Virus record (IMG/VR): IMGVR_UViG_3300020207_000096
Location: 1-32,243 of that record
DNA length: 32,243 nt
Origin: a virus
Direction: 5' to 3' (one strand)
Under the pieces are notes generated by a model. The model searched no databases, was not told the DNA's origin, and was given only the letters and a program-made list of their open reading frames with translations. Shown here piece after piece: positions 3,001 through 22,778 of this stretch. Position 1 is the stretch's first letter, and each line of letters opens with the position of its first letter. Made by a program: the position numbers and the translations under genes.

Positions 3001-3769
3001 TTCAACGGGCTCTGCTGGTACTTCGGGTACTTCTGGTACAAGTGGATTGGATGGAACTTTATTTGGTTCTTCAGGTACTTCTGGCACATCGGGTTCATCG
3101 GGTACATCTGGTTTAGGTGGTTCAAGTGGTTCAAGTGGTTCAAGTGGTACTTCTGGTTTAGATGGTACTCTATTTGGTTCATCTGGTTCAAGTGGCTCAA
3201 GTGGAAGTAGTGGTACTTCTGGTGCGGGTACGGATGGTTCAGCAGGTTCATCTGGTACAAGTGGTTCGAGTGGTTCATCTGGTGTTGATGGTGCAATAGA
3301 AATAGCAACCGATGGTGCAGATAGAGTTCTTACTGCAGATGGTGATGGAACTGCAACTGCAGAGGCTAATTTAACATTTGATGGTAACTTATTAGATATA
3401 ACGGGTGATTTAGATGTAAGTGATGCTACATTCTCTACAAGATTCCATGAAAACTATAACAACATAGGAAATGCAAGTGGAACAGTGACTATTAATTTAG
3501 AAACTGCAAATAATTTCAGAATTAATAGAACAGGAAATATTACAACACTTAATATTTCAAATCCACCAAATGGTCCTCGTGCAATTGGATTTACATTATT
3601 ATTAGAAGATGGAGGTAGTGGTGCAACAGTTCAATGGCCTGCAAATATAGAGTGGGCAAATGGTGCAGCACCTACACTAACAACGAGTGGAAAAGATATA
3701 TTAGTATTCTATACTTATGATGGTGGAATTACATATTATGGATTCTTGAGTGCGAATAATGTAAGTTAA
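2..3769 (+). CDS. Giant collagen-like tail fibre protein, 5' end outside the window
   Basis: Reading frame 2 is open from base 2 to the TAA at 3767-3769, so at least 1255 residues are present and the gene begins upstream of the window. A GTG at 413 in the same frame is not the start: it lies inside a folded domain that begins about 40 codons earlier. Order of parts: Gly-X-Y repeats (2-298), a cupredoxin-like domain (about 299-622), a long Gly-Ser/Thr-Ser repeat shaft (623-3289), then a non-repetitive beta-rich tail (3290-3769) of the kind seen at phage fibre tips, with LTFDGNLLDITGDL followed by a compact 140-residue end domain. There is no S74 chaperone at the C terminus. The shaft probably forms a trimeric triple helix on the virion. 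Fibre role is inferred from architecture and neighbours; receptor unknown. Confidence 0.85.
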   Translation, partial: SGTSGTSGTSGTSGTSGSSGTAGTSGTSGTSGTSGTSGSSGTSGSSGSSGSSGSSGSSGSSGTTGSAGTSGTSGTSGTSGTSGTSGTSGTSGTAGREGGRLYIVNQDGFNYSFDGYAGNFPTLTVVRGELYYFDVSGVSSSHPFALRLASESTTAVPGTTNNDPTNGKHSTSVLIEYRVPEDAPDSIVYQCVNHASMIGTIEIVDKHGTSGTSGSSGSSGASGTSGSSGSSGSSGSSGSSGSSGSSGSSGSDGSSGSSGSSGSSGSSGSSGSSGSSGSSGTSGSSGSSGSSGSSGSTGSAGSSGTSGQDGETGSSGSAGTSGTSGTSGSSGSSGTSGTTGTAGTSGTSGTSGAQGSSGSAGTSGTSGTSGTSGSSGTTGSAGTSGTSGTSGTSGTNGTSGTSGTSGTSGTSGTSGTAGTSGTSGTSGTSGSSGTSGSSGSSGTSGTSGISGSSGTSGTSGSSGTSGSSGSAGSSGTSAEGSSGTSGTSGAQGTSGSAGSSGSSGSSGTSGTSGSSGSSGTSGSSGSSGTSGSSGTSGSSGTSAEGSSGTSGTSGTSGSSGSSGTSGITGSSGTSGTSGSVGTSGSSGTSGTSGSSGTDGTGGSSGTSGTSGSSGTSGLDGTFFGSSGSSGTSGVDGAAGSSGTSGASGSSGTSGTSGQDGTFFGSSGTSGTSGTSGSSGTSGSSGSSGTSGIGSDGTSGTSGVDGTFAGSSGSSGTSGTSGISGTSGVSGTAGTSGTSGVDGTFFGSSGSSGTSGTSGAGTSGTSGTSGTSGTSGLDGTFFGSSGTSGSSGTSGTSGAGTSGSSGSSGTSGIDGTFFGTSGTSGTSGTSGIGSSGTSGTSGISGTSGTSGTSGTSGADGTFFGSSGTSGTSGTSGTSGTGGTTGTAGTSGTSGLDGTLFGSSGTSGTSGTSGTSGESGSAGTSGTSGISGTDGVDGTFFGSSGTSGTSGSSGTSGAGTDGSAGSSGTSGTSGLDGTLFGSSGTSGTSGSSGTSGANGTDGSTGSAGTSGTSGTSGLDGTLFGSSGTSGTSGSSGTSGLGGSSGSSGSSGTSGLDGTLFGSSGSSGSSGSSGTSGAGTDGSAGSSGTSGSSGSSGVDGAIEIATDGADRVLTADGDGTATAEANLTFDGNLLDITGDLDVSDATFSTRFHENYNNIGNASGTVTINLETANNFRINRTGNITTLNISNPPNGPRAIGFTLLLEDGGSGATVQWPANIEWANGAAPTLTTSGKDILVFYTYDGGITYYGFLSANNVS
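299..622 (+). other. Cupredoxin-like domain within fibre
   Basis: Between two collagen-like blocks is a roughly 105-residue non-repetitive domain. It contains LTVVRGELYYFDV, then SSHPFALRL with a His at 425-427, and ends YQCVNHASMIGTIEIVD with Cys at 572-574, His at 581-583 and Met at 590-592. A first His after a strand and a C-x2-H-x2-M cluster between the last two strands is the ligand layout of type 1 copper proteins such as plastocyanin, although the loop between His and Met is shorter than in plastocyanin. Copper binding is inferred; the domain could keep the fold and use the cluster for another metal or for structure. Confidence 0.55.
623..3289 (+). repeat. Collagen-like Gly-Ser/Thr-Ser repeat shaft of fibre 1
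   Basis: About 890 residues of almost unbroken Gly-X-Y triplets, nearly all GSS or GTS, with rare GTA, GID, GLD, GVD and GQD triplets. Proline is essentially absent. Serine codons (AGT, TCA, TCT, TCG, AGC) and glycine codons (GGT, GGA, GGC) are mixed, so the protein repeat is far more regular than the DNA repeat. Similar blocks occupy 2-298 and 6708-8012. Confidence 0.95.
1850..3180 (+). repeat. Twelve-copy DGT(F/L)FG interruption series in the collagen-like shaft
   Basis: The second half of the shaft carries twelve copies of a G-(L/V/I/A/Q)-D-G-T-(F/L)-F-G unit (one has A in place of the second F), separated by stretches of roughly 13 to 36 residues of GSS/GTS. Each unit places three residues between successive glycines instead of two, so it adds one residue to the triplet register, and it introduces large hydrophobic side chains. 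The first half of the shaft (623-1849) has none. Confidence 0.85.
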
Positions 3770-5885: not shown

Positions 5886-8800
5886 ATGGAATACGGAGGA
5901 AAGAACCCAAACGGAATAAATCAGGTCAGTCAAAGTTTACTTTCGATTGATGTACAAGGTATAGAGCAGGTTAATATATCAACATCTTCGGTTGATATTA
6001 ATACATCTTTAAATGTAGAGGGTGGTATTACTGCATCTTCATTTAGTGGTTCGTTTACTGGTTCATTCAAAGGTGATGGTTCTCAATTAGAAAGTATTCC
6101 AACAACAGCACTTACTGGTGATATTTCAAGAATAGCAGAAGGAAATGCAACTGCATCGGTATCTAATGGTACAACTTTAGAAATAAATGTCAATACAAAT
6201 ATAGATGGTATTGTATCTGCATCCCTTTATAGAGGTGATGGTGGTGGTTTATATAATGTACCTGCTGATGCAATTGGTGACATTGATAGATTAAAATCTG
6301 GTTCTGCAGAAGCAGTAATTTCTCCAAACAATGGATTACAAGTAAATGTAGCAACTGATATAGATAATACATTAGATGTAACGGGTAATACTACATTAGA
6401 TAGTGATTTAAGTGTTGGTAATAATGCTACAATAACAAATGATTTAACAGTTGGTGGAACTATAACATCAACTGAATTAATAACAACTTTTGTATCATCA
6501 TCAGTAATTTATGCATCTGGTTCGAATGTGTTTGGTGATGAATCTTCAGATACACATCAATTCACAGGTTCAGTTTTAATTAAAGATTCGGTTGTAATTC
6601 CAGTCTTTAGTTCAGAACCTGCAGGTGGACAAATCGGACAATTATATTATAACGATACTGACACAAACATTTATAGATATACATCAACTGGTTGGGAAGA
6701 AGCTGCAGGTACTGCTGGAACAAGTGGTACGAGTGGAACAAGTGGAACTTCTGGTTCATCTGGTTCTTCTGGCTCAAGTGGCTCAAGTGGTTCGAGTGGC
6801 TCAAGTGGTGTAAGTGGAACTTCGGGTTCATCTGGTTCATCTGGTTCTTCGGGCTCAAGTGGTTCAAGTGGTTCAAGTGGAAGTTCGGGTTCAAGTGGCT
6901 CGAGTGGAAGCAGTGGAAGTAGTGGTACTGATGGTAGTGCCGGTACTGATGGTTCTGCAGGTTCAAGTGGAAGTAGTGGAAGTTCGGGCTCAAGTGGTTC
7001 AAGTGGTTCTTCTGGTAGTGGTGGTTCAAGTGGAAGCAGTGGTTCAAGTGGAAGTAGTGGTAGTTCTGGTACATCGGGCTCTGGTGGTTCGAGTGGTATA
7101 GATGGTCCACAAGGCCCACAGGGTAACCCTGGTACATCTGGCTCAAGTGGTTCATCGGGTAGTTCTGGTTCAAGTGGAGAAGATGGTGCACCTGGTACAA
7201 GTGGTTCATCGGGGTCATCAGGCTCATCTGGTTCGAGTGGTAGTAGTGGTTCTTCTGGTATAGATGGTGTTGGTGGTGAATCTGGTTCAAGTGGTAGCAG
7301 TGGTTCATCTGGCTCAAGTGGTAGTAGTGGTTCGAGTGGTTCAAGTGGTATAGATGGAAATCCTGGAACGAGCGGAAGTAGTGGTTCAAGTGGTTCGAGT
7401 GGAACGAGTGGTAGAGATGGTGCATCTGGTGAAGGTGGTACGCCTGGTACATCGGGTAGTAGTGGCTCAAGTGGTTCATCTGGCTCAAGTGGTTCATCGG
7501 GCTCAAGTGGTTTAACAGGAGAATCTGGTTCATCTGGTAGCTCAGGTTCAAGTGGCTCAAGTGGTTCATCTGGTTCAAGTGGTTCTTCTGGTTCTGATGG
7601 TTCTTCTGGCTCATCTGGCTCAAGTGGTTCATCTGGTACTGATGGTGCACAAGGTGTAGATGGAGACCCTGGTACAAGTGGTTCTTCGGGTTCGAGTGGG
7701 TCATCTGGTTCATCCGGTTCAAGTGGTACAAATGGTTCATCTGGCTCGAGTGGAACGAGTGGAACATCTGGTTCATCCGGTTCAAGTGGTACAAATGGTT
7801 CATCTGGCTCGAGTGGTACATCTGGTACCTCTGGTTCAAGCGGAAGTTCCGGTAGTAGTGGTTCGAGTGGTTCGAGTGGGTCATCTGGCTCAAGTGGTTC
7901 ATCTGGTTCAAGTGGTACTGATGGTTCTGCTGGGTCTTCTGGTTCGAGTGGAAGTAGTGGTTCATCTGGTTCAAGTGGAAGCTCTGGTACATCTGGTAGT
8001 GGAGGAACAAGTGGATTACTTTCTCTAACTGGTAATACTGATAATGGTGTAATTACATTAAATGGTTCAGCACCAAATGCAACGGTTGAATCAAATCTTA
8101 CTTTTGATGGAACAACCCTAAATATAACAGGTAATCTGAATGTAACGGGTACTCAAACAATTGTGAATACCGAAACTATTCAGTTGGCAGATAATATTAT
8201 TACTCTTAATTCAAACTTCACATCAGGTACTCCTTCGGAAAATTCTGGTATTGAAGTTTTAAGAGGTTCTTCGGCAACAAAACAATTTTATTGGAAGGAA
8301 TCAAATGATAGATGGTATGCGGATTCAACTTTAGAAACCGATGGTGGATTTCATGTAAAAGAGGGAATTTACTTCACAGGTAATAATCAAAGTACAATAT
8401 ATACTCCAACTGCAGACTCAATTAAATTTTCAACTTTAGGTGTTGGGGAAAGATACAATTTTGGGCCTACTGGTACAATGACCATATATGGTGACCAGAT
8501 AATAAGAACAATAGGAGGAACTTTAACCATAGGAAATTATGGTGGTAGTGGAACTTTATCATTTAGAACTGCTGCCGTAGAAAGATTAGCAATTGCAGCA
8601 AATGGCGAAGCAACCTTTACTGGTGTTGTAAATGCAACTAAACTGAATACTGGACATGGTGATAATGAGTTGTACGCAATGGACCAAAATGTTCGTACAA
8701 CCGATTCACCAACATTTGCTGGAATGACCTTAAATGGTACTTTAACTCTTGGTTCAAATGTAATTAATGATGTTGAGGACATTTATTTAAGAGACCGAAT

Positions 8801-11800
8801 TTATCACGATGGTAATACGGGAACTTATATGCAATTCCATGCAACTGACCAATGGAGAATTGTAACTAATAACGTAGAACGATTAGAAGTAAATAACTCA
8901 GCAGTAAAAGTAAGTACCACATTAGATGTAACTGGAAGAATAACACCAGATACTCCTGCTGATTATGACCAAACTGCAGTAACATCTCTTACTAATGCAC
9001 CAATTTACTACGATGAAGTAAATGTTGGTACAACTGACACATTCCTTCCAGCATTCCATATGAGAAGTAGATATACTTCTGGCTATAGAACTCATATGAA
9101 TGTGGGTCTTTATAAACGGGCTTCTGCTTGGGGTGATAATGATACTGGTTTCTATATTGCATTGGGTGGTAATGATTCATATCCAACAAAATATTGGAAA
9201 TTTACATATGGACATTCTATATACAATTCAGAGGGATATGTAACAACGCCTGGTTCATTTAGGTCTGATATATTCTATAATTGGACTGATACTACATATA
9301 GAATCGATGGTAATGGTAGTTCTATTTTAAGAGATTTGGAATTAAGAACCAATGGTTTAAGACTAGCAAGAAATTATACTAACAATGCTATTTGGTTTAA
9401 TGGTGGAACTGATGCAAATCATGTTCTTTGGAATGATTACTATGGTGGCCCTGGTGGTAGAGGTGCTGCAGGTAGTGGTACATTAGATGGAATGAAGTGG
9501 AACACCCTACAAGGTTTACATATTAGAGGTGGTTCTGGTGGAGCATATGATATTGCTAAATTTTGGAATCCATCTTCATCTACTGCAAATGGTCATTATG
9601 TACAACTTTATGCAAATAATTCTGAAAAATTAAGAACTATATCAACGGGTGTTAGAGTTTATGGTGAATACCAAATTAATGATTCAAATACTCAATTAGA
9701 AGAAGGTAGTGGAAACTCATTAAGGGTTAGAACTAATAGTGGATATGTTGATATGGGCCCAATGAATGGTACATATGCTCATTTCCAAACTGATAGAGGA
9801 AACTTCTACTTTAATAAGAGAGTTCAGTTTGATGGAGGGATTCAGGCATATGATACATCTGACTATGCATACTTCCCAACTTATTATAACTGGACTGATA
9901 CTGGTTATTATGGTGATTTTAATTCAACATCAAGATTAAATAGAATTAAAGTTTCTAATTTATACGGAAGTTCAGAAAGAAGATTTGTAAATCCAGAAGG
10001 TGGAACATCTACTTCAAATGCTGGAAGTACAACTGGTGCCATAAGAATTAGATTACCACAAAATAGAAGAAATTCTTCTACGATGTTGAGAATGACTATA
10101 AAAGTTTATGAATACTCAACTGGTAGAAGTTCAACTTTTGAAATTGGTGGATACAACTATGGACCAGGTAACTGGTATAACATATTTGCTACTCAATTAA
10201 CTGATGCCGGTAGAAGTGCATTTACTATACGATGGGGTGATGATGGTAGTAGAGAATTTATCACAATTGGTGAAACAAATACAACTTGGTCTTACCCACA
10301 AGTTTACATAACTGAAGTACAAACAGGACATAGTGGATATTCTACAAACTGGGGTAGTGGTTGGAGTGTTGATTTTGTAACATCAATTAGTGGTGTTGAA
10401 CAAACAAGAACAGCATCATTAGTTCTTACTACAAACAACACATCTAATACAGGTGACCTTTATGGTGGAAATGCATACTTCTATCGTTATTATGATAGAG
10501 ATAATGCAGCATACTTCACAGAACCTGCCTCTATTTCATATATGCATGAACTACGGGTAGATGATTATATCAGACATAATGGTGACACAAACACCTATAT
10601 CTTATTCGAAACAGATAGAATGTATTTGTATGCTGGTGGCAGAAGAATGATGGAAATGGATGAAGGTACTGACCCAGATATCCTTCAATTAGGTGATTCT
10701 GCTACAAGAACCGTAAATCAAGGACAATTAATAGTTGGTGATACAACAGTAAGATACTCATCTGGTGATAATACACCATTAGTATCTGGTTTAAATAGTA
10801 GTGTACTTCATGTTGATGGTTCTATTCAATTAAGAAATAATGCAGATGCATTGATAATTGGTAGAAGTACATCATCATTCTTCAAAGATGAAGAAATTGG
10901 CTTTGGATGGGGTGGTGGTTGGTACATGACCGAAGGTAGTTTGTTGAGAGTTAGAAATAATAAGATTGTTTACTCAACTAATAATGCAGACTTTGGAACA
11001 TTCAGAAGATACAATAACACGGGATATTATCTAAATCCTGCTGCAGGAAATACAAGTGTTGCACTTAATACCAATGGTATTATTAATAGAATAGGTTTCC
11101 AAACATCTGGTGATGGTAATAACAATGCAGTTATTAAAGCACAAGATTATTCACATTGGATTTGGCAAACTGCAACAGATTGGGGTATTTTCTGGGCTGG
11201 AAATGATAACCCATATCGTTCATATTGGAGTTCTTCAAATCCAAATGAATTTGTGTTCATTGGTAATGGTAGTCTACGTGCTTCTATTGATTTAGATAAT
11301 GGTAACACATATTTTGGAGGTCAAGTGAGGGCTTCAATTTATTATGACCATAACACTTCATATTATGTTGACCCAGCTGGAACATCTCGTTTAAATAATT
11401 TATTAGTAACTGGTAACAGAATTGGATTTATTAATACATCATATGATGCTGAAATTAGAGTTAACGATGGTAATCCAAATGGTGCTGGTGCAGAATTTGT
11501 TTTTTATGGTGATACTGGTTCTGGAAATGCTCAACTTACTGCTGAGGTGGGTAACTTCTATAATCAAGTTATAACACGAGCATTAACTGATACTGATAAC
11601 TCTGCTTATAGAATCGAACCTAATAGTGATTCTCGATTAAATAATTTAAGAGTTGATGGTACTTTAGACTTAAATGGGCCAATTGTAGCAGAAGATTACA
11701 TTGCATTAGATGACTTCTATACGGTTCCAATTAAATCTACAATGACTGCAAGTGGAACTCAAGCTCGTACATTTGAAATTGCTAGAATTTCAATGGACTG

Positions 11801-14800
11801 GAATGATTGGAACTCTACTGGTACTTTTGAAGTAGAATTACATGAAAGGTACTTTGGTAGAGGTTCTAAAAAGACCTATATGGTTTATTGGGGATACTAT
11901 AATGGGTATCAAGCAAGATTAGTTGAAAATAGAACTTGGGGATATGATTATTATCGAGTAAGGATTGGTTCGCCTGTAACTATTAGTGGTGATATCAGAT
12001 ATGTACCAGTTTATGTTGATGTTAGATATTATGCACAAGTAGATGCAATTATTAGAACTAATAGAGATGTAACATTTACAGATAGTACACCAAGTCGTTC
12101 ATGGGCGTATATTAACCAATCACCTGGTGCAACAAATATTTCAGATTTCTCACCTGATACCATCGCATACCCATCGATGGACAATGCAATTGCATCGAGT
12201 AGATATTACGATACAAATACTTCATATTTTGGAGATTTTGGCTCAGAAATCAGAATGCCATATCAGAATGGTGGTACAATGAGATTAAGAACCAATACCC
12301 ATTGGGATAATCAATCTGGTATTGATTTAATTGGTGGTGCAGGTGAATTCAGAATGAGTTCCGATGTTGGTAACTTAAACTTGAGAGTTGATGGTTGGGG
12401 TATTTTCTATGATTATCTACAATCAAGAATATTCTATGATTTAGACAATAGTGGATATAGAGTAGACCCTCGTAATACATCAATAATGAGTGGTTTAAGG
12501 TTAGATGGTATTGATAACCAAGCTTCTGGTGATGATGCAATCTTATGGATTAACAAACCAAACAATAATGATTGGGGTATGATTGTTACTGGTAACTTGG
12601 ATTACGGAATTGACCTTCGTATGGCAAGTAACCACACTTATGGTTTAAGATTGTTAAGTGGTGGTAGTGAATCTTTCCTACTAAATCATGATTACGCAAG
12701 ACACAATTCTGATATGAGGTCTCCAATTTATTATGATTGGACTAATACAGGATATTATGTAAATCCAGATGGTTACTCAAATATGGGTGACATTAGAGGT
12801 ACTGAAATCTACGCTAGAAACTGGTTTAGAAATGATAATAGTGGTGAAGGTTTATATAACCAAGCAACTGCAATGCATTGGTACTCAACTGGAAATAGAA
12901 CTTGGAGATTATATGGTACTCAATCGACAGTTGAAATCAACATGGCTACTGCAGGTAATAATACCAGAGGTTATTTATATGCAACTAACTCCAATGAAAT
13001 TGGTTTATTAGATTCTGGTGGAAGTTGGGCAATTAGACACCAAAATGATAATGGTACTTATTTCTATTCAGATAACGGTTCATTAGAGGCTCGGATTGGT
13101 ATTGATACCGTTGGTGCATCTTATGGTACAATGCGTGTTGATAGAAGACTAAATGGTTGGTCTGGATATTCAATCGAAGGAAGATGGGTATTCATGCACG
13201 ATGGTTCTTCTGCAGCTGGTCTCTATAATGATGTAAACAACGAATGGGCTGTCTTAATGTATAGAAACTCTTGGGTTGGTTTATACTACAATGGTTCAAG
13301 AAAAATAGAAACATATAGTGGTGGTGCTTACACCATTGGTGAACAAAGAGCTGATTTCTACCGTGATAGAAACAATAGTGGATATTATATGGACCCTTGG
13401 GGATTCACCAATTTTGGTAGAACAAGTGGGCCTGTAATGCAAATAACTAAAACAGGTTCAGGTGGTACAGCTGGAAATAGTGTAACCCTATTAGTTCGGA
13501 ATCAGTATGGTAATCACTCTTGGGGTATTACCGGTGAATTTAGAACTGAAGGAAGTGGTGGTGGAGATAGACCTTCTATCTTATTCTCATCTGCAATGAC
13601 CGGTACAACTTGGTCTGTTGGATATGGATATGCAGATGATAACTTTAGAATCAACCAAAACCACGGATATAGAAATGGTAGTTGGGGTACTGCTAGATTA
13701 TTAATTGATACTGGTGGTAGAGTTTACAACTATGTAGAAACTCGTACTCCATTTATCTATGATAATAACGATACATACTATTATTGGGATGGAAATGGTA
13801 CATCAAGAAGTAATGTATCACAAGCATTTAGATTTGCAAACAACTATGATGTATCATCAAATACGGAATTCGGATTATACTTCTCAAGTGGTAGAAGTAC
13901 TGCATATGCTATTTATAGAGAAGGTGGTGGGTGGTCTTATAGATATCCTGATTTAAGGATTGCATTCCATACTGGTATTAAGTTTGGAGCAAACGCATCT
14001 TACAATGGTATGCGTTTCTACAACGATTACAATATGGCAACGCAGGTAATGTCTGTTAACAACTCAACTGACCCATTGGGTACAAACAATGTATATGTTA
14101 ACTACAACCTACAAGCTGGAGATTCATTAAGAGCACCAGTTTTCTATGATTCAAATAATACTGGTTATTATTTCGATGGTGCATCTGGACACTCTACAAG
14201 ATTTGAAGGTGCTAATGCTAGAACAATGGCATGGTTAGGTCAACCAGGTCATACGAGAGATAGTGGTGAATATTACAGAGCAAGACCAAGAATTACTGGT
14301 GATACTAACTATTGGACTGGTGCCTATGGTTGGGGTCGACAAGATTTCACAACTGCAGTTGCAGATTGGGGTTCAGGATTTATTGATACATGGTCCAATC
14401 CAGGTAACCAACCTTCGGGTACATCGCACTGGGTAGGTATTCAATCATATCACTATTCAAACGGTTCATCTCGTTATGGATGGCAAATGGTTGGTGGACC
14501 TATTACTAACTTGAGATTCCGTTCAACTTGGGGTGGATTCCGTGGTTGGAGAACTATTCCTGTTTTAGATGAAAACAATGGAAATGGTGGAGCAATGTAT
14601 GCTGGTAGCTATTATGATGCAAACGATACTGGTTATTATTGTAATCCAAATGGTACATCACAACTTCGTTATGTATTAGCAAACGATTGGTTCAGACCTC
14701 AAGGTGCTACTGGTGTTTACTTCCAATCTTATGGATACGGACTTTGGGCAGTAGGTGCACAAGGTGGACAGTATGGTAATGTTTCTACTTATGGTGGAGG

Positions 14801-15401
14801 TGTTAATGGATGGGAAGGGTGGTCTATTTCTGGTAGAGCAGTGTTTATGCATAATGGTAGTTCTTCTACTGGTATCTACAATGATGTAAACAATGAGTGG
14901 ATGATTTATGGTATTCATAACTCATACATGGAAATTGATTATAATGGTTCTTGGAAAGGTAGAGCTGAATCTTGGGGTTGGCGAGTTAATGGTGATATGA
15001 GAGCATCATCAAACGTAATCGCTTACTATTCTGATATGAGATTGAAGGATAAAGAAGGTGATATCGAAAATGCTCTTGAAAAAGTTGGTAAGTTAAATGG
15101 TTTCTATTATAGAAACAATAAAGAGGCTAACTTAATAGGATATGAAGGTAGAGAATTACAAGTAGGTTTATCTGCTCAGGATGTTAAATCAATTCTTCCT
15201 GAAATTGTAAAACCCGCTCCACTTGCTGAATCATTAGGATATGATTATATGACAATCCAATATGATAAGGTAGTACCTCTTTTAGTTAATGCAATTAATG
15301 AACAAAAAGAAATAGTAGATTCTCAAAAAGAAGAAATCGAATATTTAAAATCAGAACTCTCTGAAATGAAAGAGATGCTGAAACAATTATTAAAGAAATA
15401 A
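5886..15401 (+). CDS. Giant tail fibre with collagen-like shaft and C-terminal S74 intramolecular chaperone
   Basis: 3171 residues, the largest gene here. Residues 1-274 form a beta stalk with SGSFTGSFKGDG and a YYNDTDTNIYRYTSTGWEE collar. Residues 275-709 are Gly-Ser-Ser collagen-like repeat. Residues about 710-1000 hold fibre modules with TQTIVNTETIQLADNIITLN. Residues about 1129-2927 contain many spacer units of the pattern YYDxxNTxYYxxPxGxS between beta domains. Residues about 2773-2897 resemble a pyocin-knob-type domain (WGGFRGWRTIP). The C terminus has SDMRLKD, with Ser3049 and Lys3054 matching the S74 Ser-Lys pair, then GLSAQDV, YDKVVPLLVNAI and a coiled-coil end. Known S74 domains trimerise the fibre and cut themselves off at this serine, which here would release about 123 residues. 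It is the likely main receptor-binding fibre. Confidence 0.9.
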   Translation: MEYGGKNPNGINQVSQSLLSIDVQGIEQVNISTSSVDINTSLNVEGGITASSFSGSFTGSFKGDGSQLESIPTTALTGDISRIAEGNATASVSNGTTLEINVNTNIDGIVSASLYRGDGGGLYNVPADAIGDIDRLKSGSAEAVISPNNGLQVNVATDIDNTLDVTGNTTLDSDLSVGNNATITNDLTVGGTITSTELITTFVSSSVIYASGSNVFGDESSDTHQFTGSVLIKDSVVIPVFSSEPAGGQIGQLYYNDTDTNIYRYTSTGWEEAAGTAGTSGTSGTSGTSGSSGSSGSSGSSGSSGSSGVSGTSGSSGSSGSSGSSGSSGSSGSSGSSGSSGSSGSSGTDGSAGTDGSAGSSGSSGSSGSSGSSGSSGSGGSSGSSGSSGSSGSSGTSGSGGSSGIDGPQGPQGNPGTSGSSGSSGSSGSSGEDGAPGTSGSSGSSGSSGSSGSSGSSGIDGVGGESGSSGSSGSSGSSGSSGSSGSSGIDGNPGTSGSSGSSGSSGTSGRDGASGEGGTPGTSGSSGSSGSSGSSGSSGSSGLTGESGSSGSSGSSGSSGSSGSSGSSGSDGSSGSSGSSGSSGTDGAQGVDGDPGTSGSSGSSGSSGSSGSSGTNGSSGSSGTSGTSGSSGSSGTNGSSGSSGTSGTSGSSGSSGSSGSSGSSGSSGSSGSSGSSGTDGSAGSSGSSGSSGSSGSSGSSGTSGSGGTSGLLSLTGNTDNGVITLNGSAPNATVESNLTFDGTTLNITGNLNVTGTQTIVNTETIQLADNIITLNSNFTSGTPSENSGIEVLRGSSATKQFYWKESNDRWYADSTLETDGGFHVKEGIYFTGNNQSTIYTPTADSIKFSTLGVGERYNFGPTGTMTIYGDQIIRTIGGTLTIGNYGGSGTLSFRTAAVERLAIAANGEATFTGVVNATKLNTGHGDNELYAMDQNVRTTDSPTFAGMTLNGTLTLGSNVINDVEDIYLRDRIYHDGNTGTYMQFHATDQWRIVTNNVERLEVNNSAVKVSTTLDVTGRITPDTPADYDQTAVTSLTNAPIYYDEVNVGTTDTFLPAFHMRSRYTSGYRTHMNVGLYKRASAWGDNDTGFYIALGGNDSYPTKYWKFTYGHSIYNSEGYVTTPGSFRSDIFYNWTDTTYRIDGNGSSILRDLELRTNGLRLARNYTNNAIWFNGGTDANHVLWNDYYGGPGGRGAAGSGTLDGMKWNTLQGLHIRGGSGGAYDIAKFWNPSSSTANGHYVQLYANNSEKLRTISTGVRVYGEYQINDSNTQLEEGSGNSLRVRTNSGYVDMGPMNGTYAHFQTDRGNFYFNKRVQFDGGIQAYDTSDYAYFPTYYNWTDTGYYGDFNSTSRLNRIKVSNLYGSSERRFVNPEGGTSTSNAGSTTGAIRIRLPQNRRNSSTMLRMTIKVYEYSTGRSSTFEIGGYNYGPGNWYNIFATQLTDAGRSAFTIRWGDDGSREFITIGETNTTWSYPQVYITEVQTGHSGYSTNWGSGWSVDFVTSISGVEQTRTASLVLTTNNTSNTGDLYGGNAYFYRYYDRDNAAYFTEPASISYMHELRVDDYIRHNGDTNTYILFETDRMYLYAGGRRMMEMDEGTDPDILQLGDSATRTVNQGQLIVGDTTVRYSSGDNTPLVSGLNSSVLHVDGSIQLRNNADALIIGRSTSSFFKDEEIGFGWGGGWYMTEGSLLRVRNNKIVYSTNNADFGTFRRYNNTGYYLNPAAGNTSVALNTNGIINRIGFQTSGDGNNNAVIKAQDYSHWIWQTATDWGIFWAGNDNPYRSYWSSSNPNEFVFIGNGSLRASIDLDNGNTYFGGQVRASIYYDHNTSYYVDPAGTSRLNNLLVTGNRIGFINTSYDAEIRVNDGNPNGAGAEFVFYGDTGSGNAQLTAEVGNFYNQVITRALTDTDNSAYRIEPNSDSRLNNLRVDGTLDLNGPIVAEDYIALDDFYTVPIKSTMTASGTQARTFEIARISMDWNDWNSTGTFEVELHERYFGRGSKKTYMVYWGYYNGYQARLVENRTWGYDYYRVRIGSPVTISGDIRYVPVYVDVRYYAQVDAIIRTNRDVTFTDSTPSRSWAYINQSPGATNISDFSPDTIAYPSMDNAIASSRYYDTNTSYFGDFGSEIRMPYQNGGTMRLRTNTHWDNQSGIDLIGGAGEFRMSSDVGNLNLRVDGWGIFYDYLQSRIFYDLDNSGYRVDPRNTSIMSGLRLDGIDNQASGDDAILWINKPNNNDWGMIVTGNLDYGIDLRMASNHTYGLRLLSGGSESFLLNHDYARHNSDMRSPIYYDWTNTGYYVNPDGYSNMGDIRGTEIYARNWFRNDNSGEGLYNQATAMHWYSTGNRTWRLYGTQSTVEINMATAGNNTRGYLYATNSNEIGLLDSGGSWAIRHQNDNGTYFYSDNGSLEARIGIDTVGASYGTMRVDRRLNGWSGYSIEGRWVFMHDGSSAAGLYNDVNNEWAVLMYRNSWVGLYYNGSRKIETYSGGAYTIGEQRADFYRDRNNSGYYMDPWGFTNFGRTSGPVMQITKTGSGGTAGNSVTLLVRNQYGNHSWGITGEFRTEGSGGGDRPSILFSSAMTGTTWSVGYGYADDNFRINQNHGYRNGSWGTARLLIDTGGRVYNYVETRTPFIYDNNDTYYYWDGNGTSRSNVSQAFRFANNYDVSSNTEFGLYFSSGRSTAYAIYREGGGWSYRYPDLRIAFHTGIKFGANASYNGMRFYNDYNMATQVMSVNNSTDPLGTNNVYVNYNLQAGDSLRAPVFYDSNNTGYYFDGASGHSTRFEGANARTMAWLGQPGHTRDSGEYYRARPRITGDTNYWTGAYGWGRQDFTTAVADWGSGFIDTWSNPGNQPSGTSHWVGIQSYHYSNGSSRYGWQMVGGPITNLRFRSTWGGFRGWRTIPVLDENNGNGGAMYAGSYYDANDTGYYCNPNGTSQLRYVLANDWFRPQGATGVYFQSYGYGLWAVGAQGGQYGNVSTYGGGVNGWEGWSISGRAVFMHNGSSSTGIYNDVNNEWMIYGIHNSYMEIDYNGSWKGRAESWGWRVNGDMRASSNVIAYYSDMRLKDKEGDIENALEKVGKLNGFYYRNNKEANLIGYEGRELQVGLSAQDVKSILPEIVKPAPLAESLGYDYMTIQYDKVVPLLVNAINEQKEIVDSQKEEIEYLKSELSEMKEMLKQLLKK
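6708..8012 (+). repeat. Collagen-like Gly-Ser-Ser shaft of fibre 2
   Basis: 435 residues (275-709) of Gly-X-Y triplets dominated by GSS, richer in serine and poorer in threonine than the shaft of fibre 1. A few triplets contain Pro or charged residues (GPQGPQGNPG, GEDGAPG, GRDGASGEGGTPG), so conventional collagen triplets occur as islands. The triplet register is kept almost throughout, without the DGTFFG interruptions of fibre 1. Confidence 0.95.
9270..14665 (+). repeat. YYDxxNTxYYxxP spacer repeats in fibre 2
   Basis: At least eleven degenerate units recur between distinct beta modules, for example near 9271, 9880, 10485, 11007, 11336, 12433, 12726, 13355, 13755, 14141 and 14610. The core is (I/F)YYD-x2-N(T/S)-x-YY-x2-(P/D)-x-G-x-S, often followed by L-x2-L-x2-(D/N)G. 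They look like hinge modules linking successive fibre domains. Two of the linked modules are themselves duplicated (about 13150-13248 and 14806-14900). Confidence 0.8.
15030..15398 (+). other. S74 endosialidase-type intramolecular chaperone domain
   Basis: Encodes residues 3049-3171 of fibre 2. SDMRLKD supplies the Ser and the Lys five residues later that form the autoproteolytic dyad in this family. GLSAQDV and YDKVVPLLVNAINEQ are further family signatures, and the last 45 residues are heptad-like (Leu/Ile with Glu/Lys), consistent with a trimeric coiled coil. Predicted cut is between Tyr3048 and Ser3049. Confidence 0.85.
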
Positions 15402-16204: not shown

Positions 16205-18484
16205 ATGGCAGAAAGAATTGTATCACCTGGAGTATTTACGAGAGAAAATGACTTATCGTTTTTAGCACAAGGTGTAGGAGAAATCGGTGCAGCGTTTATT
16301 GGACCATTTAAACAAGGTCCTGCGTTTGTACCCACAGTAGTTCGAACTCAATCGGAGTTTGAAGAAAAATTTGGTACACCTGATGGTACTTACTATACAG
16401 AGTATGCAGTGCAGAATTATTTAAGAGAAGCTGGAACTGCAACAATCGTTAGAGTTGCAGGTGTAGGTGGTTATCAACAAGTTGCACCTATTGGTATTGC
16501 AACATCTGGTTCAAACGGATTTAAATTAATTTCAACACTTCATTCAACCGATAATGGTGATGCTGAAGTAGGATTTAGTGGATTTACTATTTCTGATTTA
16601 GCAGAAACTGGTTCATTTGTTGTTAGTGGTTCTGGTATTGGTGAAGTTTCTTCATCTATTTTACCTTCTGCTGGAAATGATGTAACTGATGTATTTGGAA
16701 CATCTGCAAGAGGGCCAAAAGATGCATATGTATATTCTTACTTTGAAAATGCAGCTAGTGGTAGTGGAGACGCAAATGTAATTTCAGCAATCTCACTACC
16801 AACTCAAGACTTCACATATGATGCATCATCTGCAAATACACCATGGGTCAAATCACAATTAATCTCCGGTGAAAGATATGACTTATTTAGATTCCATACT
16901 TTAGGGCATGGAAATGGTGAAAATAGAAGATTTAAAGTTTCTATCTCTGGTGTTAAGGCAGCAGGTGAGGATGGTGGAACAGATTATTCAGTATTTACTG
17001 TAACAATTCGTTCATTCTCTGATACTGACAAGAGAAAAGTAGTATTAGAAACTTTTAATAATGTAAACCTTGACCCAGACTCTGCAAACTATATCGCAAG
17101 AGTAATTGGTGATAGATATTATACAGTTGATTCAAATGGTAAAATTACTGAAAATGGTGATTGGGTAAATAACTCATCATACATTAGAGTAGAAGTAGGT
17201 GCTCAAGGTTCTTACCCAGTATCTGCTGCTCCATTCGGACACGGTGCATATGAGTTACCTATCAAGGCAACTGATTCAAGTATTGTTCCAACTGTAACTT
17301 ACCAAACAACTTCAAATGGAAATACAACTGGTAATCCTTATCAGTATGCTGGTATTAACTTTGAAACAACTGGTGTAAAGAAAGACAATTTAAATTATCT
17401 AAATCCGATTCCTGATGGTGCTGGAACTGGTTCAAATGTAGATTTTGGATTTGATTCTCAACTTTCATTAGAAATGACTGGTTCTGCAACTGAAGATATG
17501 GTTAAGAGACAATTTTCACTTGCATTCCAAGGTGGATTTGATGGTATGGCTCCTACAAGAGAAATTGCATTAGGAAGTTCAATCTCATCTGGTAATTCAC
17601 AAGGATTTGATTTAACTGATTCTACTGCTAGTGGTTCAGTTGCATACAAGAAGGCAATCGATGCAATCTCAAATCAAGATGAGTATGATATTAACATGGT
17701 AGTAACACCTGGTATTGTAAGAAGATTACACCCAGCAGTAACTACTGATGTGATTGATATGGTAGAGGCAAGACAAGATGCATTCTTTATCTCTGACTTA
17801 ACTGGAGTGAGTGATACAATTGCACAAGTAACTACTCAAGCTAACTCAATCGATTCGAACTATGTAGGTTCTTATTATCCTTGGGTTAAGACAGTAGATA
17901 CAAATACTAACAAATTAATTTCAGTTCCACCTTCAGTATTGTTACCTGCAGTATTTGCTGCTAACGATGCAATTGCAGCTGAGTGGTTTGCTCCTGCTGG
18001 TTTGAATAGAGGTGGTATTATTGGTGCAGTATCAGTATTGAATAGATTAACTCACTCTGAAAGAGATACTTTATATGAAAACAAAGTAAACCCAATTGCT
18101 TCATTCCCAGGACAAGGTATTGTTGCATTTGGACAAAAGACTCTACAAGATAAGGCTTCTGCATTAGATAGAATCAATGTAAGAAGATTGTTGATTGCAG
18201 TTAAGAAGTTTGTTGCAAGTACTTCAAGATACTTGGTATTCGAACAAAACACTGCTCAAACAAGAGGTAGATTTATCAATACAGTACAACCTTATTTAGA
18301 GGGTATCCAACAAAGACAAGGATTGTATGCATTCAAAGTGGTTATGGATGAAACTAACAACACACCTGATGTAGTTGATAGAAACATACTTGCTGGACAG
18401 ATTTTCTTACAACCTGCTAAGACTGCTGAATTCATCGTAATTGATTTCAACATCTTACCAACTGGGGCATCTTTCTCGGCATAA
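16205..18484 (+). CDS. Contractile tail sheath protein (T4 gp18-like)
   Basis: 759 residues, somewhat longer than T4 gp18 (659). The N terminus MAERIVSPGVFTRENDLSF carries the SPGV...E signature of myophage sheath proteins, followed by IGPFKQGPAFVPTVV and a Glu-Phe-rich segment typical of the first domain. The C-terminal domain has INVRRLLIAVKKFVAST, a conserved helix of sheath families, then FEQNT and a final FIVIDFNILPTGASF strand that in other sheaths makes the inter-subunit handshake. The middle is a variable beta-rich insertion that likely faces outward. The tube gene follows directly, as in T4. It polymerises around the tube and contracts during injection. Confidence 0.93.
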   Translation: MAERIVSPGVFTRENDLSFLAQGVGEIGAAFIGPFKQGPAFVPTVVRTQSEFEEKFGTPDGTYYTEYAVQNYLREAGTATIVRVAGVGGYQQVAPIGIATSGSNGFKLISTLHSTDNGDAEVGFSGFTISDLAETGSFVVSGSGIGEVSSSILPSAGNDVTDVFGTSARGPKDAYVYSYFENAASGSGDANVISAISLPTQDFTYDASSANTPWVKSQLISGERYDLFRFHTLGHGNGENRRFKVSISGVKAAGEDGGTDYSVFTVTIRSFSDTDKRKVVLETFNNVNLDPDSANYIARVIGDRYYTVDSNGKITENGDWVNNSSYIRVEVGAQGSYPVSAAPFGHGAYELPIKATDSSIVPTVTYQTTSNGNTTGNPYQYAGINFETTGVKKDNLNYLNPIPDGAGTGSNVDFGFDSQLSLEMTGSATEDMVKRQFSLAFQGGFDGMAPTREIALGSSISSGNSQGFDLTDSTASGSVAYKKAIDAISNQDEYDINMVVTPGIVRRLHPAVTTDVIDMVEARQDAFFISDLTGVSDTIAQVTTQANSIDSNYVGSYYPWVKTVDTNTNKLISVPPSVLLPAVFAANDAIAAEWFAPAGLNRGGIIGAVSVLNRLTHSERDTLYENKVNPIASFPGQGIVAFGQKTLQDKASALDRINVRRLLIAVKKFVASTSRYLVFEQNTAQTRGRFINTVQPYLEGIQQRQGLYAFKVVMDETNNTPDVVDRNILAGQIFLQPAKTAEFIVIDFNILPTGASFSA

Positions 18485-18536: not shown

Positions 18537-19025
18537 ATGGCAGAAGTATTAGAATTTAACGAAATGTTCTTTACCAACTTCGAACCGAAGATGAAGAACA
18601 GATACATCATGGAGATTGATGGTATTCAGTCGTACTTAATTAAGGCAGCAAGTAGACCAGCTATCAATTTCGAAACTGTAAAGTTAGACCACATCAACAC
18701 TTATAGAAAACTACAAGGTAAAGGTGAGTGGCAAGATATCGAAATTACTCTATATGACCCAATCGTTCCAAGTGGAGCACAACAAGTGATGGAATGGGTA
18801 AGATTAGGGTATGAATCTTTAACTGGTAGAAAAGGATATGCAGATTTCTACAAAAAAGATATCGATTTCTATATGTTAGGTCCAGTTGGTGATAAAATTG
18901 AACAATGGAAACTGAAAGGTGCTTTCATTGCTGCTGCTAATTTCAATGACTTGGCATTCGACTCTAATGACCCTGCTGAAATTTCACTAACATTGGCATA
19001 CGATTACGCTGTGTTAGAGTTTTAA
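18537..19025 (+). CDS. Tail tube protein (T4 gp19-like)
   Basis: 162 residues, against 163 for T4 gp19. It starts MAEVLEFNEMFFTNFEPKMKNR, reaches a NRYIMEIDGI strand and a FETVKLDHINTYRKLQGKGEW segment, and has EITLYDPIVPSGAQQVMEWV, all in the order of the myophage tube fold. The C terminus is a beta strand (EISLTLAYDYAVLEF). It stacks in hexamers to form the inner tail tube inside the sheath encoded just upstream. A strong terminator follows 33 bases after the stop, so the sheath-tube pair is closed off from the downstream tail genes, fitting its high copy requirement. Confidence 0.93.
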   Translation: MAEVLEFNEMFFTNFEPKMKNRYIMEIDGIQSYLIKAASRPAINFETVKLDHINTYRKLQGKGEWQDIEITLYDPIVPSGAQQVMEWVRLGYESLTGRKGYADFYKKDIDFYMLGPVGDKIEQWKLKGAFIAAANFNDLAFDSNDPAEISLTLAYDYAVLEF

Positions 19026-19142: not shown

Positions 19143-19916
19143 ATGAGCGAAAATAAATTCGATTTCCCAACCGAGGTAGTGGATTTACCATCAAAGGGAT
19201 TAGTTTATCCAGAAGGACATCCTTTAAGAAAAGGAAATGTTGAAATTAAATACATGACTGCAAGAGAAGAAGATATTCTTGCATCTCAATCTTTAATTAA
19301 AAAGGGTATAGTTTTAGATAAACTATTTGAATCAGTTGTTGTAGAACCAGGTGTTGATATAAATGATATCTTTATCGGTGATAAAAATGCAATTCTTTTA
19401 GCAACAAGAGTAATGGGTTATGGTTCTGATTATGTTGTTGAGGTAACTGACCCATCTACATTAGAATTACAAAAAGTAACTATTGATTTATCAAAGGTAA
19501 AAACCAGAGATTTTAATGAAGAGTTACTCAATGGTGATAACCTATATAAGTTTACTTTACCAAAAAGTGGAACTGAATTAGAATTTAAACTTCTAACACA
19601 TGGTGATGAGATTGAAATTAGTAAAGAAAACCAAGCATTAGCTAGATTATATAAAGGAAAGGGAGATGCTACATTTGATGTAACAACTCGTTTAAAGTAT
19701 ATGATTCAATCAGTAGATGGTAACCAAGATAGAGGATTCATTACTAAATGGGTACAAAATTCATTCCTAGCATTAGACACTAAAGCATTCAGAAAATTTG
19801 TGAAAGGGTTAAGTCCTGATATGGATTTAACATTCAACTTTGTTTCAGAGTTGACGGGTGAAGAGGAGGCACTCGATATCCCGTTTGGGGTATCGTTTTT
19901 TTACCCTTCCGAATGA
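19143..19916 (+). CDS. gp26-like tail/baseplate assembly protein, upstream frame of a likely frameshift pair
   Basis: 257 residues. VVDLPSKGLVYPEGHPLRKGNVEIKYM near the N terminus and DIFIGDKNAILLATRVMGYGSDY are signatures of the T4 gp26-type (T4_baseplate) family found upstream of the tape measure gene. In T4 gp26 is a baseplate hub protein; in related phages this slot is occupied by tail assembly chaperones that bind the tape measure protein. The frame ends at TGA 19914-19916, fifteen bases after a TTTTTTT tract (19896-19902), and a second open frame overlaps the end. The family C-terminal segment with a GFTWxDVYxMPxxxRxFY pattern is in that second frame, so the full-length protein probably needs a frameshift. 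The unshifted product ends FFYPSE. Confidence 0.75.
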   Translation: MSENKFDFPTEVVDLPSKGLVYPEGHPLRKGNVEIKYMTAREEDILASQSLIKKGIVLDKLFESVVVEPGVDINDIFIGDKNAILLATRVMGYGSDYVVEVTDPSTLELQKVTIDLSKVKTRDFNEELLNGDNLYKFTLPKSGTELEFKLLTHGDEIEISKENQALARLYKGKGDATFDVTTRLKYMIQSVDGNQDRGFITKWVQNSFLALDTKAFRKFVKGLSPDMDLTFNFVSELTGEEEALDIPFGVSFFYPSE

Positions 19917-20109
19917 TTATAGTATCCAACTTCACAACCAAATTTGGGAGTTGGTTAACTTTGGTAACGGATTTACTTGGAGAGATGTTTACTTCATGCC
20001 TATACAATGGAGAAAGTTCTATTTCAATAAGTTATTAGAGTTAAAAAAGAAAGAAGCAGAAGAACATAAGAAAATAGAAAGAAAGTCAAAGGTGAGGGTT
20101 AGGAAATAA
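19858..20109 (+). CDS. Overlapping downstream frame of the gp26-like gene, probably expressed by frameshifting
   Basis: This frame, offset +1 from the gp26-like frame, opens after a stop at 19852-19854 and ends at TAA 20107-20109. Its only early initiation codon is a GTG at 19858 without a usable ribosome-binding site, and the residues before the T tract (KRRHSISRLGYR) look like non-coding shadow. After the tract the sequence becomes protein-like: IQLHNQIWELVN, then GFTWRDVYFMPIQWRKFYFN and a Lys/Glu-rich helix. That segment looks like the C-terminal part of gp26-like proteins. A +1 slip on TTT would give a product of about 321 residues (253+68); a -2 slip gives 322. A sequencing error in the homopolymer is the main alternative. 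Confidence 0.6.
   Translation: MKRRHSISRLGYRFFTLPNDYSIQLHNQIWELVNFGNGFTWRDVYFMPIQWRKFYFNKLLELKKKEAEEHKKIERKSKVRVRK
19896..19903 (+). other. Candidate ribosomal slippage site (TTTTTTTA)
   Basis: Seven T residues read TTT TTT TAC in the gp26-like frame. A P-site Phe tRNA can re-pair with TTT after moving +1 or -2, both of which enter the overlapping frame. AGGAGG, a perfect Shine-Dalgarno-like string, lies at 19864-19869, 26 bases upstream, which is further than in well-studied frameshift sites. Confidence 0.5.
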
Positions 20110-20125
20110 TCCTCACTTTTTTTTT
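20092..20125 (+). terminator. Rho-independent terminator overlapping the stop codon of the frameshift ORF
   Basis: GTGAGGGTTA (20092-20101) pairs with TAATCCTCAC (20107-20116) through ten base pairs including one G-T, with a 5-base loop, followed by nine T residues (20117-20125). The last codons and the TAA of the preceding frame form part of the hairpin. Confidence 0.9.
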
Positions 20126-20387: not shown

Positions 20388-22778
20388 ATGGCCTCAAGTG
20401 ATGAAATAAAAAAATTAAAGGAAAACGTTGCAGCTGCCAAAGCTGAAATGGATAGACTATTAGGCACTGAAAACGAGCTTGGAAGGGCTAGGGTAAAGGG
20501 CACAAAAGAGTATAAAAACCAGGTAACAATATTAAAAGAAAACAACGAGCAATTAAAGGAAATACAAGCAAAGACTAAAATAATAGTAGATACTTTAATT
20601 CAACAAGAAGGTAAATTAAAAGGACTAACTGGTATACAGGCTTCATTAGTTGAATTAGATAGAAAGAGGCTAAATTCTCAACAAACATTAGGTTCGGTAA
20701 CACAAGATAGTATTAATTCAGTTGCATCAGCAACACAAGAATTGTTATCAATGTCAGCTGAAGATGAAATAAGTAGAGCAAAAAAATTAGCAGATATAAA
20801 TGACCAAATTGAACTATTAAGAGAAAATGAGGAGGTTAATCAAGATATAATAAATACTCTTGAACAGCAAAGAGATATTGCAGAAAGAATGTCTTCACTA
20901 ACCGAAAAACAACAAGGTTATTTAAATAAACAACTTAAAGTATATGAGAGTATAAAAGACACCGTTGGTGGTATTTTTGATACAGCAGACCTACTATTAT
21001 CAACAGGCCTTGGTAAATTAGGTGCTGTATTTATAGCAGGTGGAGCTGCTGGAAAGAAATTATTAGAAACTTCAAGACAATTAGGTAGTTCTTTATTAGA
21101 TACTTCAAATATATCAACAACTTTATTTTCAACAATATTTCCAAATGCAGTTGAAACTACAAAATCTCTTTCAAAAGAATTTGGTGGATTAAGTGATGTA
21201 TCAGCACTAACACAATTTAGAACTAATGCACTTGCTACAAATTTAGGAATAAGTGCAAGTGAGGCTGCTGGATTAACTGGTTCTTTTGCTAGATTAAATG
21301 ATGGGTCTGCAAAAACAGCACAAAACTTAATTCAGTCTACTAAAAACCTTGCAGAACAAAATGGATTAGTTCCTGCTGATGTAATGGCTGATGTAGCAAA
21401 TTCTGCTGAACAATTTGCATTATTTGGAAAAAATGGTGGTAAGAATATTGCTGAGGCTGCCATTGCTGCTAGTAAGTTGGGGGTTTCAATGCAACAAGTT
21501 TCTGGTATTGCTGATAACCTTTTAGATTTTGAAAATTCAATTAATGCAGAATTAGAACTTGGTGCAATGTTAGGTAGAAATATCAATTTAGATAGAGCCA
21601 GAGCATTAGCATATGAAGGAGATATAGGTGGTGCAGTTAGAGAAACACTTTCATCGTTAGGTGGTATAGAAGAATTCAATAAAATGGATTACTTCCAAAA
21701 GAAACAAACCGCAGCATTATTAGGTGTATCTGTTGCAGAATTCCAAAAAATGGCTGACAATGCAGATAAATTAGGTAAAAATGGAGAAATAACAGTAACT
21801 AATTATGAAAAATTTGCAAACACTGCAAAATCAGTAGGTTCACAACTATTTAGTGGAATGCAAGCAATGGGCAGTATGGCTATTGCAGCAGGTCAAATGG
21901 GTATTAATCTTAAAAGTAGTGGTGGTATATTACAAAAATTTAAATCATACTTTGGTAAAGGACCGAAAGGTCCACTTAAAGCTGATGGTACACCTGATAT
22001 GAGATTTAAGAGTAATAAAACTGCCCCAATGAAATCCTTATCAGATAAAGCAAATCCAGCTTCTAAAGGTGGAATGATGGATTCTATGTCTAAAATCAAT
22101 ATGAATGCAGTTCTTAAAGGTGCTGCAGCAATGGTAATTGTAGCTGGTGCTGTATTTGTATTTGGAAAAGCAGTACAAGAATTTATGAAGGTTAGTTGGG
22201 AAGCAGTTGGAATGGCGGTGGTATCGATGTTATCTTTAGTTGGTGCTGTTGCCCTATTGGGTGCTATTATGATGAGTGGAGTTGGTGCAGTAGCAATTTT
22301 AGCTGGAGCAGCAGCAATGTTAGTAATAGCGGCATCAGTATTGGTATTAGGACATGCACTTCAAGCGATAGGAACTGGATTTGAAATGATGGCTAGTGGT
22401 ATCGGAACTTTAATGCCACAATTAATGTCTGTAGCTACAACAATTAGTGGATTAGTACTATTAATCCCAGCAATAGCATTATTATCATATTCATTAATGG
22501 GGTTATCAGCTTCGTTAATAGCATTGGGTGTAGCTGGAGTTCTTGCCGCACCAGGATTAATGGCTTTGTCAGTAGTTGGTACTGTTGCAACTGGGTTAAA
22601 TTCATTATTAGGTGGTGATGGTGGTGGTGGTGAAGACCGCGAACTATTAACTGAAATTCAAGGGTTACGAAACGATTTAACCAATGGTAAAGTTGCAGTT
22701 TATATGGATGGACAAAAAGTTGCATCAACCTTATCAAAGGTCTATGATAAAATAGGAAGTAATTCATACGCAGTATAA
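20388..22778 (+). CDS. Tape measure protein
   Basis: 796 residues. The first 190 residues are helical, rich in Glu, Lys and Gln, and coiled-coil-like. The centre is Ala/Gly/Ser-rich with long helices (for example SASEAAGLTGSFARL). Residues about 570-750 form a series of hydrophobic segments such as MVIVAGAVFVFG, LSLVGAVALLGAIMM, AILAGAAAMLVIAASVLVLG and LLIPAIALLSYSL, the membrane-active part typical of tape measure proteins. The family sets tail length, at about 1.5 angstroms per residue in known phages, which would suggest a tail on the order of 120 nm. Position after the gp26-like pair and before tube-initiator-like and hub genes matches the usual order. The next gene starts two bases after the stop. 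Confidence 0.88.
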   Translation: MASSDEIKKLKENVAAAKAEMDRLLGTENELGRARVKGTKEYKNQVTILKENNEQLKEIQAKTKIIVDTLIQQEGKLKGLTGIQASLVELDRKRLNSQQTLGSVTQDSINSVASATQELLSMSAEDEISRAKKLADINDQIELLRENEEVNQDIINTLEQQRDIAERMSSLTEKQQGYLNKQLKVYESIKDTVGGIFDTADLLLSTGLGKLGAVFIAGGAAGKKLLETSRQLGSSLLDTSNISTTLFSTIFPNAVETTKSLSKEFGGLSDVSALTQFRTNALATNLGISASEAAGLTGSFARLNDGSAKTAQNLIQSTKNLAEQNGLVPADVMADVANSAEQFALFGKNGGKNIAEAAIAASKLGVSMQQVSGIADNLLDFENSINAELELGAMLGRNINLDRARALAYEGDIGGAVRETLSSLGGIEEFNKMDYFQKKQTAALLGVSVAEFQKMADNADKLGKNGEITVTNYEKFANTAKSVGSQLFSGMQAMGSMAIAAGQMGINLKSSGGILQKFKSYFGKGPKGPLKADGTPDMRFKSNKTAPMKSLSDKANPASKGGMMDSMSKINMNAVLKGAAAMVIVAGAVFVFGKAVQEFMKVSWEAVGMAVVSMLSLVGAVALLGAIMMSGVGAVAILAGAAAMLVIAASVLVLGHALQAIGTGFEMMASGIGTLMPQLMSVATTISGLVLLIPAIALLSYSLMGLSASLIALGVAGVLAAPGLMALSVVGTVATGLNSLLGGDGGGGEDRELLTEIQGLRNDLTNGKVAVYMDGQKVASTLSKVYDKIGSNSYAV

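Follow-up and report, generated by a model that had tools for sequence, protein, structure and literature searches.

A gp26-like tail gene of a T4-related phage and its probable production of two tail assembly chaperones by +1 ribosomal frameshifting

Results

Tail module and the frame-0 product

The window analysed in this study is the whole stretch of 32,243 nucleotides of a 32-kb virus record (IMGVR_UViG_3300020207_000096), and the gene under study lies within its tail module, together with the following genes.

16205-18484: tail sheath gene
18537-19025, + strand: tail tube gene, gp19-like, the upstream neighbour (PF06841, E = 2.8e-8; phrog_4542, E = 2e-28)
19143-19916, + strand: gp26-like gene, frame 0, 257 aa
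20168-20377: short lysine-rich ORF, 69 aa, separating the gp26-like gene from the tape measure gene
20388-22778, + strand: probable tape measure gene, 796 aa, the downstream neighbour

The order of tail tube gene, gp26-like gene and tape measure gene is also present in Mel-JY01, immuto (a Flavobacterium phage), SP-15, and LIS04. The 796-aa product had no significant match in Pfam or PHROGs; based on its position and the annotation of its counterpart as tape measure in immuto, SP-15, and LIS04, it is probably the tape measure protein. The 69-aa ORF had no convincing family match. An earlier note on this DNA had likened the gp26-like gene to the overlapping frames found directly upstream of tape measure genes; it does lie upstream, but the 69-aa ORF intervenes before 20388. 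Elsewhere in the window, two very long ORFs (413-3769, 1118 aa; 5886-15401, 3171 aa) carry collagen-like GSSGTSG repeats, and the C-terminal end of the latter resembles an intramolecular chaperone of tail fibres.

The 257-aa product of frame 0 matched PF12322 (T4_baseplate) with 25.3 bits, just above the curated cut-off of 24.5, and phrog_150 (baseplate hub) with an E value of 8.8e-10. The frame-0 and +1 segments were modelled separately. The AlphaFold model of the frame-0 product had a pLDDT of 92.8, and its best viral fold matches include predicted T4-like hub proteins and a hub protein of SP-15 (TM 0.83). Judging from these profile matches and the predicted fold, the frame-0 product is a member of the gp26/gp51 family (PF12322), and by analogy it is probably the short form of a tail assembly chaperone (TAC-N). 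Its match with the structure of the HK97 chaperone (2ob9) was weak (probability 0.28), and PDB sequence and fold searches returned no significant match.

The junction and the +1 frame in relatives

The features at and beyond the end of frame 0 are as follows.

19896-19903, + strand: seven T residues (T7) followed by A, read from the sequence
19896-19904, + strand: putative shift site TTT TTT TAC, codons F252, F253, and Y254, marked by T7 conservation in alleles
19914-19916, + strand: frame-0 stop codon TGA, end of the short form
19903-20109, + strand: putative C-terminal extension (TAC-C, or T domain) of a 321-aa long form, from +1-frame codon diversity, alignment and model
20088-20120, + strand: hairpin resembling an intrinsic terminator, lying across the end of the +1 frame, from a terminator scan

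Frame 0 reads GTA TCG TTT TTT TAC CCT TCC GAA TGA across the junction and thus ends at 19914-19916, just past the T tract, as described previously. No stop interrupts the +1 frame before 20109. The sole start listed for it is a GTG at 19858 without an obvious ribosome-binding site, from which an ORF of 83 aa would be read. Joining the two frames at the T tract, with one step of four bases, gives 321 aa, in agreement with the long product of about 321 residues proposed in the earlier note. The terminator-like hairpin at the end of the +1 frame suggests that both frames are carried by one transcript.

Two viral-contig searches with both segments gave 160 hits, and all of the 42 distinct junctions inspected first carried TTTTTTTACCC with a frame-0 stop right after it. 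A wider survey covered 402 loci, among which 236 junction contexts were distinct; these are phylogenetically related, so that their counts are not independent, and 222 of them had a readable end. In 218 of the 222 contexts the +1 frame ran on for 40 codons or more (median 68), while the median in the -1 control frame was 17 and the +1 extensions past eleven other genes of the window were 1-38 codons long. Such conservation goes well beyond what chance would give, and the overlapping +1 frame described in the earlier note is confirmed. No in-frame fusion of the two frames was noticed among the surveyed contexts. In the remaining four contexts, namely L243, LR756511 (L164), and the jumbo phages Atu_ph07 (L165, near 3286) and PA5oct (L167, near 3672), a comparable chaperone extension lies in the -1 frame, and the shift direction varies within the chaperone family; Atu_ph07 and PA5oct carry U UUU UUC, which is a standard -1 site.

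Among 51 distinct close alleles of the same length, diversity at the three codon positions was 0.091/0.057/0.307 upstream of the site, read in frame 0, and 0.112/0.038/0.307 beyond the frame-0 stop, read in the +1 frame, and the substitution periodicity changes from frame 0 to the +1 frame across the junction. These patterns indicate that both segments are under protein-level constraint, each in its own frame. T7 was present in all 51 alleles, and TGA or TAA stood at 19914-19916 in all of them; in L109-type alleles, the stop is one codon earlier. Of the fully conserved Phe codons, F252 and F253 alone are TTT in every allele, TTC accounting for 38% in the rest of the gene. A homopolymer of 7 in a metagenome contig might be taken as a sign of an assembly or sequencing error, or the gene as a decaying pseudogene. 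However, the same offset is found in the 51 distinct alleles of identical length, in the isolates Mel-JY01, immuto, SP-15, LIS04, and GXN1, and also at sites that are not homopolymers, and both segments are constrained as coding sequence. An error or a pseudogene is thus refuted by conservation, and its probability is negligible.

The T tract is kept in more than 190 of about 230 distinct contexts, and its conservation in homologues is thereby confirmed. The most frequent sites among these contexts were TTT TTT TGG (122), TTT TTT TAC (69), and TTT CTT TGG (28), followed by TTT CTA TGG (3), CTT TTT TGG (3), and single variants; TTC TTT TAC also occurs among the relatives. The sites are TTT TTT CAC in SP-15 (Bacillus), TTT TTT AGT in LIS04, TTC TTT CGT in GXN1 (a Streptococcus phage), and TTT CTA TTC in LR756508. 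Nearly all sites have in common a Phe UUU with U or C as the next base, on which tRNA-Phe can re-pair one base forward. The phasing in frame 0 is TTT TTT T and not X XXY YYZ, the tract therefore not being a -1 slippery heptamer.

The direction of the shift had been given earlier as +1 or -2. A -2 ribosomal shift at the T tract would reach the same frame with one Phe more (junction peptide SFFFTLP; GVSFFFTLPNDY in the window allele), and P-site re-pairing two bases back is possible on TTT TTT TAC. By codon-anticodon reasoning, however, such pairing is poor or absent in the relatives with TTC TTT TAC, TTC TTT CGT, and TTT CTA TGG, while pairing after a +1 shift is always available. The +1 direction thus fits best, and the -2 direction is disfavoured to the point of being quite improbable.

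The T domain might instead be translated from a start of its own (the GTG at 19858, or coupling), in which case the two frames would be separate overlapping genes. The 83-aa ORF that begins with GTG, the GGAGG upstream, and the annotation of Mel-JY01 with two overlapping hypothetical proteins are consistent with such an arrangement. Nevertheless, ATG, GTG, and TTG are all missing from the +1 frame before the site in 73 of 228 contexts, the next +1-frame start in these being a median of 16 codons downstream. Besides, a +1-frame stop lies 2 nt before the T tract in about 20 contexts, which confines the shift to about 20 nt and leaves no room for an independent start, and the conservation of T7 would be left unexplained. 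The downstream frame is present in the homologues and a separate start does not fit them, contrary to what would have refuted the earlier note, and two separate genes are very unlikely. The long form is absent from the public annotations of Mel-JY01, immuto, SP-15, and LIS04, in which the +1 segments (L157, 3746-3982; L158, 3851-3961; L160, 3809-3928; and L163, after 2729, respectively) either stand as a hypothetical protein of their own, overlap with a short hypothetical ORF, or carry no annotation.

RNA structures 5' of the shift site

Three elements were recognised directly upstream of the T tract.

19855-19875, + strand: stem-loop 1, 19855-19860 paired with 19870-19875 and GGAGG in the loop, from pairing and covariation
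19865-19869, + strand: GGAGG resembling a Shine-Dalgarno sequence, within the stem-loop 1 loop
19875-19894, + strand: stem-loop 2, immediately before the T tract, 19875-19882 paired with 19887-19894, from RNAalifold

Relative to the shift site, GGAGG was located at -31 in 54 of 59 TTTTTTTAC contexts; in 24 TTTCTTTGG contexts its position was -30 or -31, while GGAGG and the stems were less regular in the TTTTTTTGG group. In stem-loop 1, 92% of cells were paired, and two synonymous third-position pairs vary on both sides (GC/AU/UA/CG and UA/CG/GC/AU). Cells changed on both sides at synonymous third-position pairs numbered 34, as compared to 11.2 in shuffles, none of 500 of which reached 34, and 0-9 when the partner was slid. 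RNAalifold, unprompted, recovered both stem-loops in 53 distinct TTTTTTTAC alleles, with the inner 4 pairs of stem-loop 2. The 45 nt 5' of the site were more stable than synonymous recodings in four groups (mean z of -2.8 for the group of close alleles, and -1.6, -1.8, and -0.8), part of this excess being due to GC-rich codons. For the 60 nt downstream (19903-19990 region), stability again exceeded that of synonymous recodings (mean z of about -0.9 to -2.6). A conserved 3' stimulatory structure is not proposed, since the predicted downstream folds differ between alleles. An Rfam search gave nothing relevant, with a weak match to the L20 leader alone. Stimulation of +1 shifting by an upstream hairpin that adjoins the frameshift site is known, on 70S ribosomes too (PMC6321510), and we infer that the two 5' stem-loops may stimulate the shift in this gene.

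The same structures could serve RNA polymerase, which might drop one U of T7 with the aid of the nascent upstream hairpin, so that a fraction of the mRNA would carry the fused frames. The terminator scan flags 19874-19895, where a stem followed by T7 makes the stem-loop directly before the tract terminator-like in the window allele; loss of one base gives exactly the +1 frame, and a stem-loop-dependent one-base deletion is known in a Roseiflexus insertion sequence (described in PMC5009743). However, about 30 distinct contexts and some distant phages keep the +1 arrangement without a T run longer than 3 (TTT CTT TGG, TTT CTA TGG, and TTC TTT CGT), and the run required for stem-loop-dependent transcriptional slippage, which measures 7 in the window allele, is missing from the TTT CTT TGG sites and other relatives. 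Besides, the last paired base is often 3-4 nt before the T run. Polymerase slippage is thus improbable, if less so than the -2 shift, although it keeps some standing as a rival for the window allele and for T7 alleles considered by themselves. Because Phe UUU re-pairing in +1 is shared across varied sites, a +1 slip of the P-site tRNA-Phe is favoured over both.

The C-terminal extension

In an alignment of 106 T-domain sequences, a P and an R were invariant, and F, F, L, G, and Y were nearly so. The model of the T domain consists of a helix, a short helix and a long helix (pLDDT 80). A profile of the domain found the shifted-frame extensions of SP-15, LIS04, GXN1, and LR756511 (E of 0.0013 or less). 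Weak matches were obtained with phrog_634 (gp51 C-terminal family) in 12 of the 106 T domains (best E = 0.0037) and with phrog_32580 (tail assembly chaperone) in 9 (best E = 0.042); the two phrog_634-matching domains that were checked aligned to positions 70-119 of the 121 profile positions. The search with the T-domain profile did not recover T4 gp51. Comparison of the fused and T-domain alignments with ten gp51 proteins by hhalign gave no match, even for the N-terminal part, whose relation to gp51 is indicated by Pfam and PHROGs, the method being too insensitive. A link between the T domain and the C-terminal extension of gp51 is suggestive.

Discussion

The results of this study point to one gene of a T4-related contractile-tailed phage producing both tail assembly chaperones via a +1 ribosomal shift, a reading to which we give a probability of roughly 0.87. 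Sequence, conservation, the switch of coding frame, RNA covariation, and gene position are its observed basis. From these we infer that ribosomes shift by +1 and how efficiently they do so, as well as what the stem-loops contribute and that the products act as chaperones. The programmed frameshift suggested in the earlier note is thus supported, on comparative sequence grounds. Points that weigh against the +1 reading are the kinship of the surveyed contexts, the A-site codons, which unlike in RF2 are not stops, the less regular GGAGG and stems of the TTTTTTTGG group, the terminator-like hairpin with T7 in the window allele, and the weak match to 2ob9.

The expression of the gene was hypothesised to proceed as described below. 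The majority of ribosomes would terminate at 19914 and release the 257-aa short form. A minority would slip +1 at TTT TTT TAC, the P-site peptidyl-tRNA-Phe exchanging its UUU for the UUU that overlaps it by one step, with the next codon standing in the A site, which is Tyr UAC here and Trp UGG in most relatives. Reading would then continue with ACC CTT CCG on to 20109, giving the 321-aa long form with the junction peptide SFFTLP (within GVSFFTLPNDY) and a helical T domain. A forward push on the ribosome may come from the two 5' stem-loops, of which the first exposes GGAGG in the loop and the second lies near the E site. If the proteins act as in lambda G/GT, the short form would coat the tape measure protein, and the long form would recruit tail tube subunits.

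If this hypothesis is true, the surveyed relatives would provide natural variants, in the hundreds, of a bacterial +1 site that has RNA structure on its 5' side, and few examples of such sites are known. Relatives with the same out-of-frame layout range from marine phages to Bacillus phages, and the annotations of the isolate genomes (Mel-JY01, immuto, SP-15, and LIS04) are without the full-length product. One protein family would show three solutions, that is, a +1 shift, a -1 shift, and two genes. The Phe-UUU +1 shift with its 5' module of two stem-loops and Shine-Dalgarno element might be ancestral in the gp26/gp51 family, with duplication in T4 and a change to -1 in the jumbo relatives, and the 5' module with its Shine-Dalgarno loop would then be a new type of +1 stimulator; to this tentative proposal we give somewhat less than even odds.

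Comparison with known systems

The two paralogous chaperone genes of T4 are 26 and 51. Their products belong to the same protein family as that of the window gene, since both match PF12322 and phrog_150, and they match each other in BLASTP (E = 2e-6). In T4, gp26 is short and gp51 is a longer paralogue with a C-terminal extension, the two genes lying on opposite strands, whereas in the window a single gene would serve, by means of a +1 shift. Most simply read, T4 devotes two genes to a short gp26-like and a long gp51-like form, both of which come from a single gene here. Vladimirov, Gautam and Davidson (2022) reportedly proposed that the tail assembly chaperones of T4-like phages arise in another way than by frameshifting. 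In the stretch of the cyanophage P-SSM4 that was examined, no gp26 or gp51 is annotated beside the tail tube gene.

RF2 (prfB) resembles the window gene, as read here, in its +1 P-site slip and its upstream Shine-Dalgarno element. The RF2 shift depends on an A-site stop codon and on a Shine-Dalgarno sequence a few nt away. In the window, by contrast, the A site holds UAC (also UGG in relatives), and GGAGG starts 31 nt upstream, beyond the hairpin, so that the site is not of the RF2 type.

Shifts of +1 at Phe UUU are known from influenza PA-X (UCC_UUU_CGU) and amalgaviruses, and a TTT-CGC +1 shift was suggested for the tail chaperones of the HF1 group of haloviruses (cited in PMC7230728). These sites share with the window the proposed +1 slip of a P-site Phe UUU, and GXN1, a member of the window family, has exactly TTT CGT; unlike them, the window combines a UUU UUU UAC site with stem-loops that covary on its 5' side. 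The HF1 viruses, which have haloarchaeal hosts and in which the shift is only suggested, are likened to the window by the shift site.

Short and long chaperone isoforms, a T-rich site and a position upstream of the tape measure gene are shared with the tail chaperones of Vandenendeviridae and Andersonviridae, in which the frameshift is -1 at GTTTTT (PMC12846349), whereas it would be +1 in the window family, with -1 in a few relatives such as Atu_ph07 and PA5oct.

The G-T frameshift is widely conserved in long-tailed phages except T4 (PMC5009743), and relatives with one gene and a +1 shift would link T4 to these phages. The window gene is like lambda G/GT (Xu, Hendrix and Duda 2004; described in PMC5009743) in its overlapping frames between the tail tube and tape measure genes, and in its putative short and long isoforms with a C-terminal T extension. 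In lambda, the shift is -1 at a slippery heptamer, whereas in the window gene it would be +1 through a P-site Phe slip with conserved 5' structures. The window gene is thus outside the -1 G/GT class, though it would work like it.
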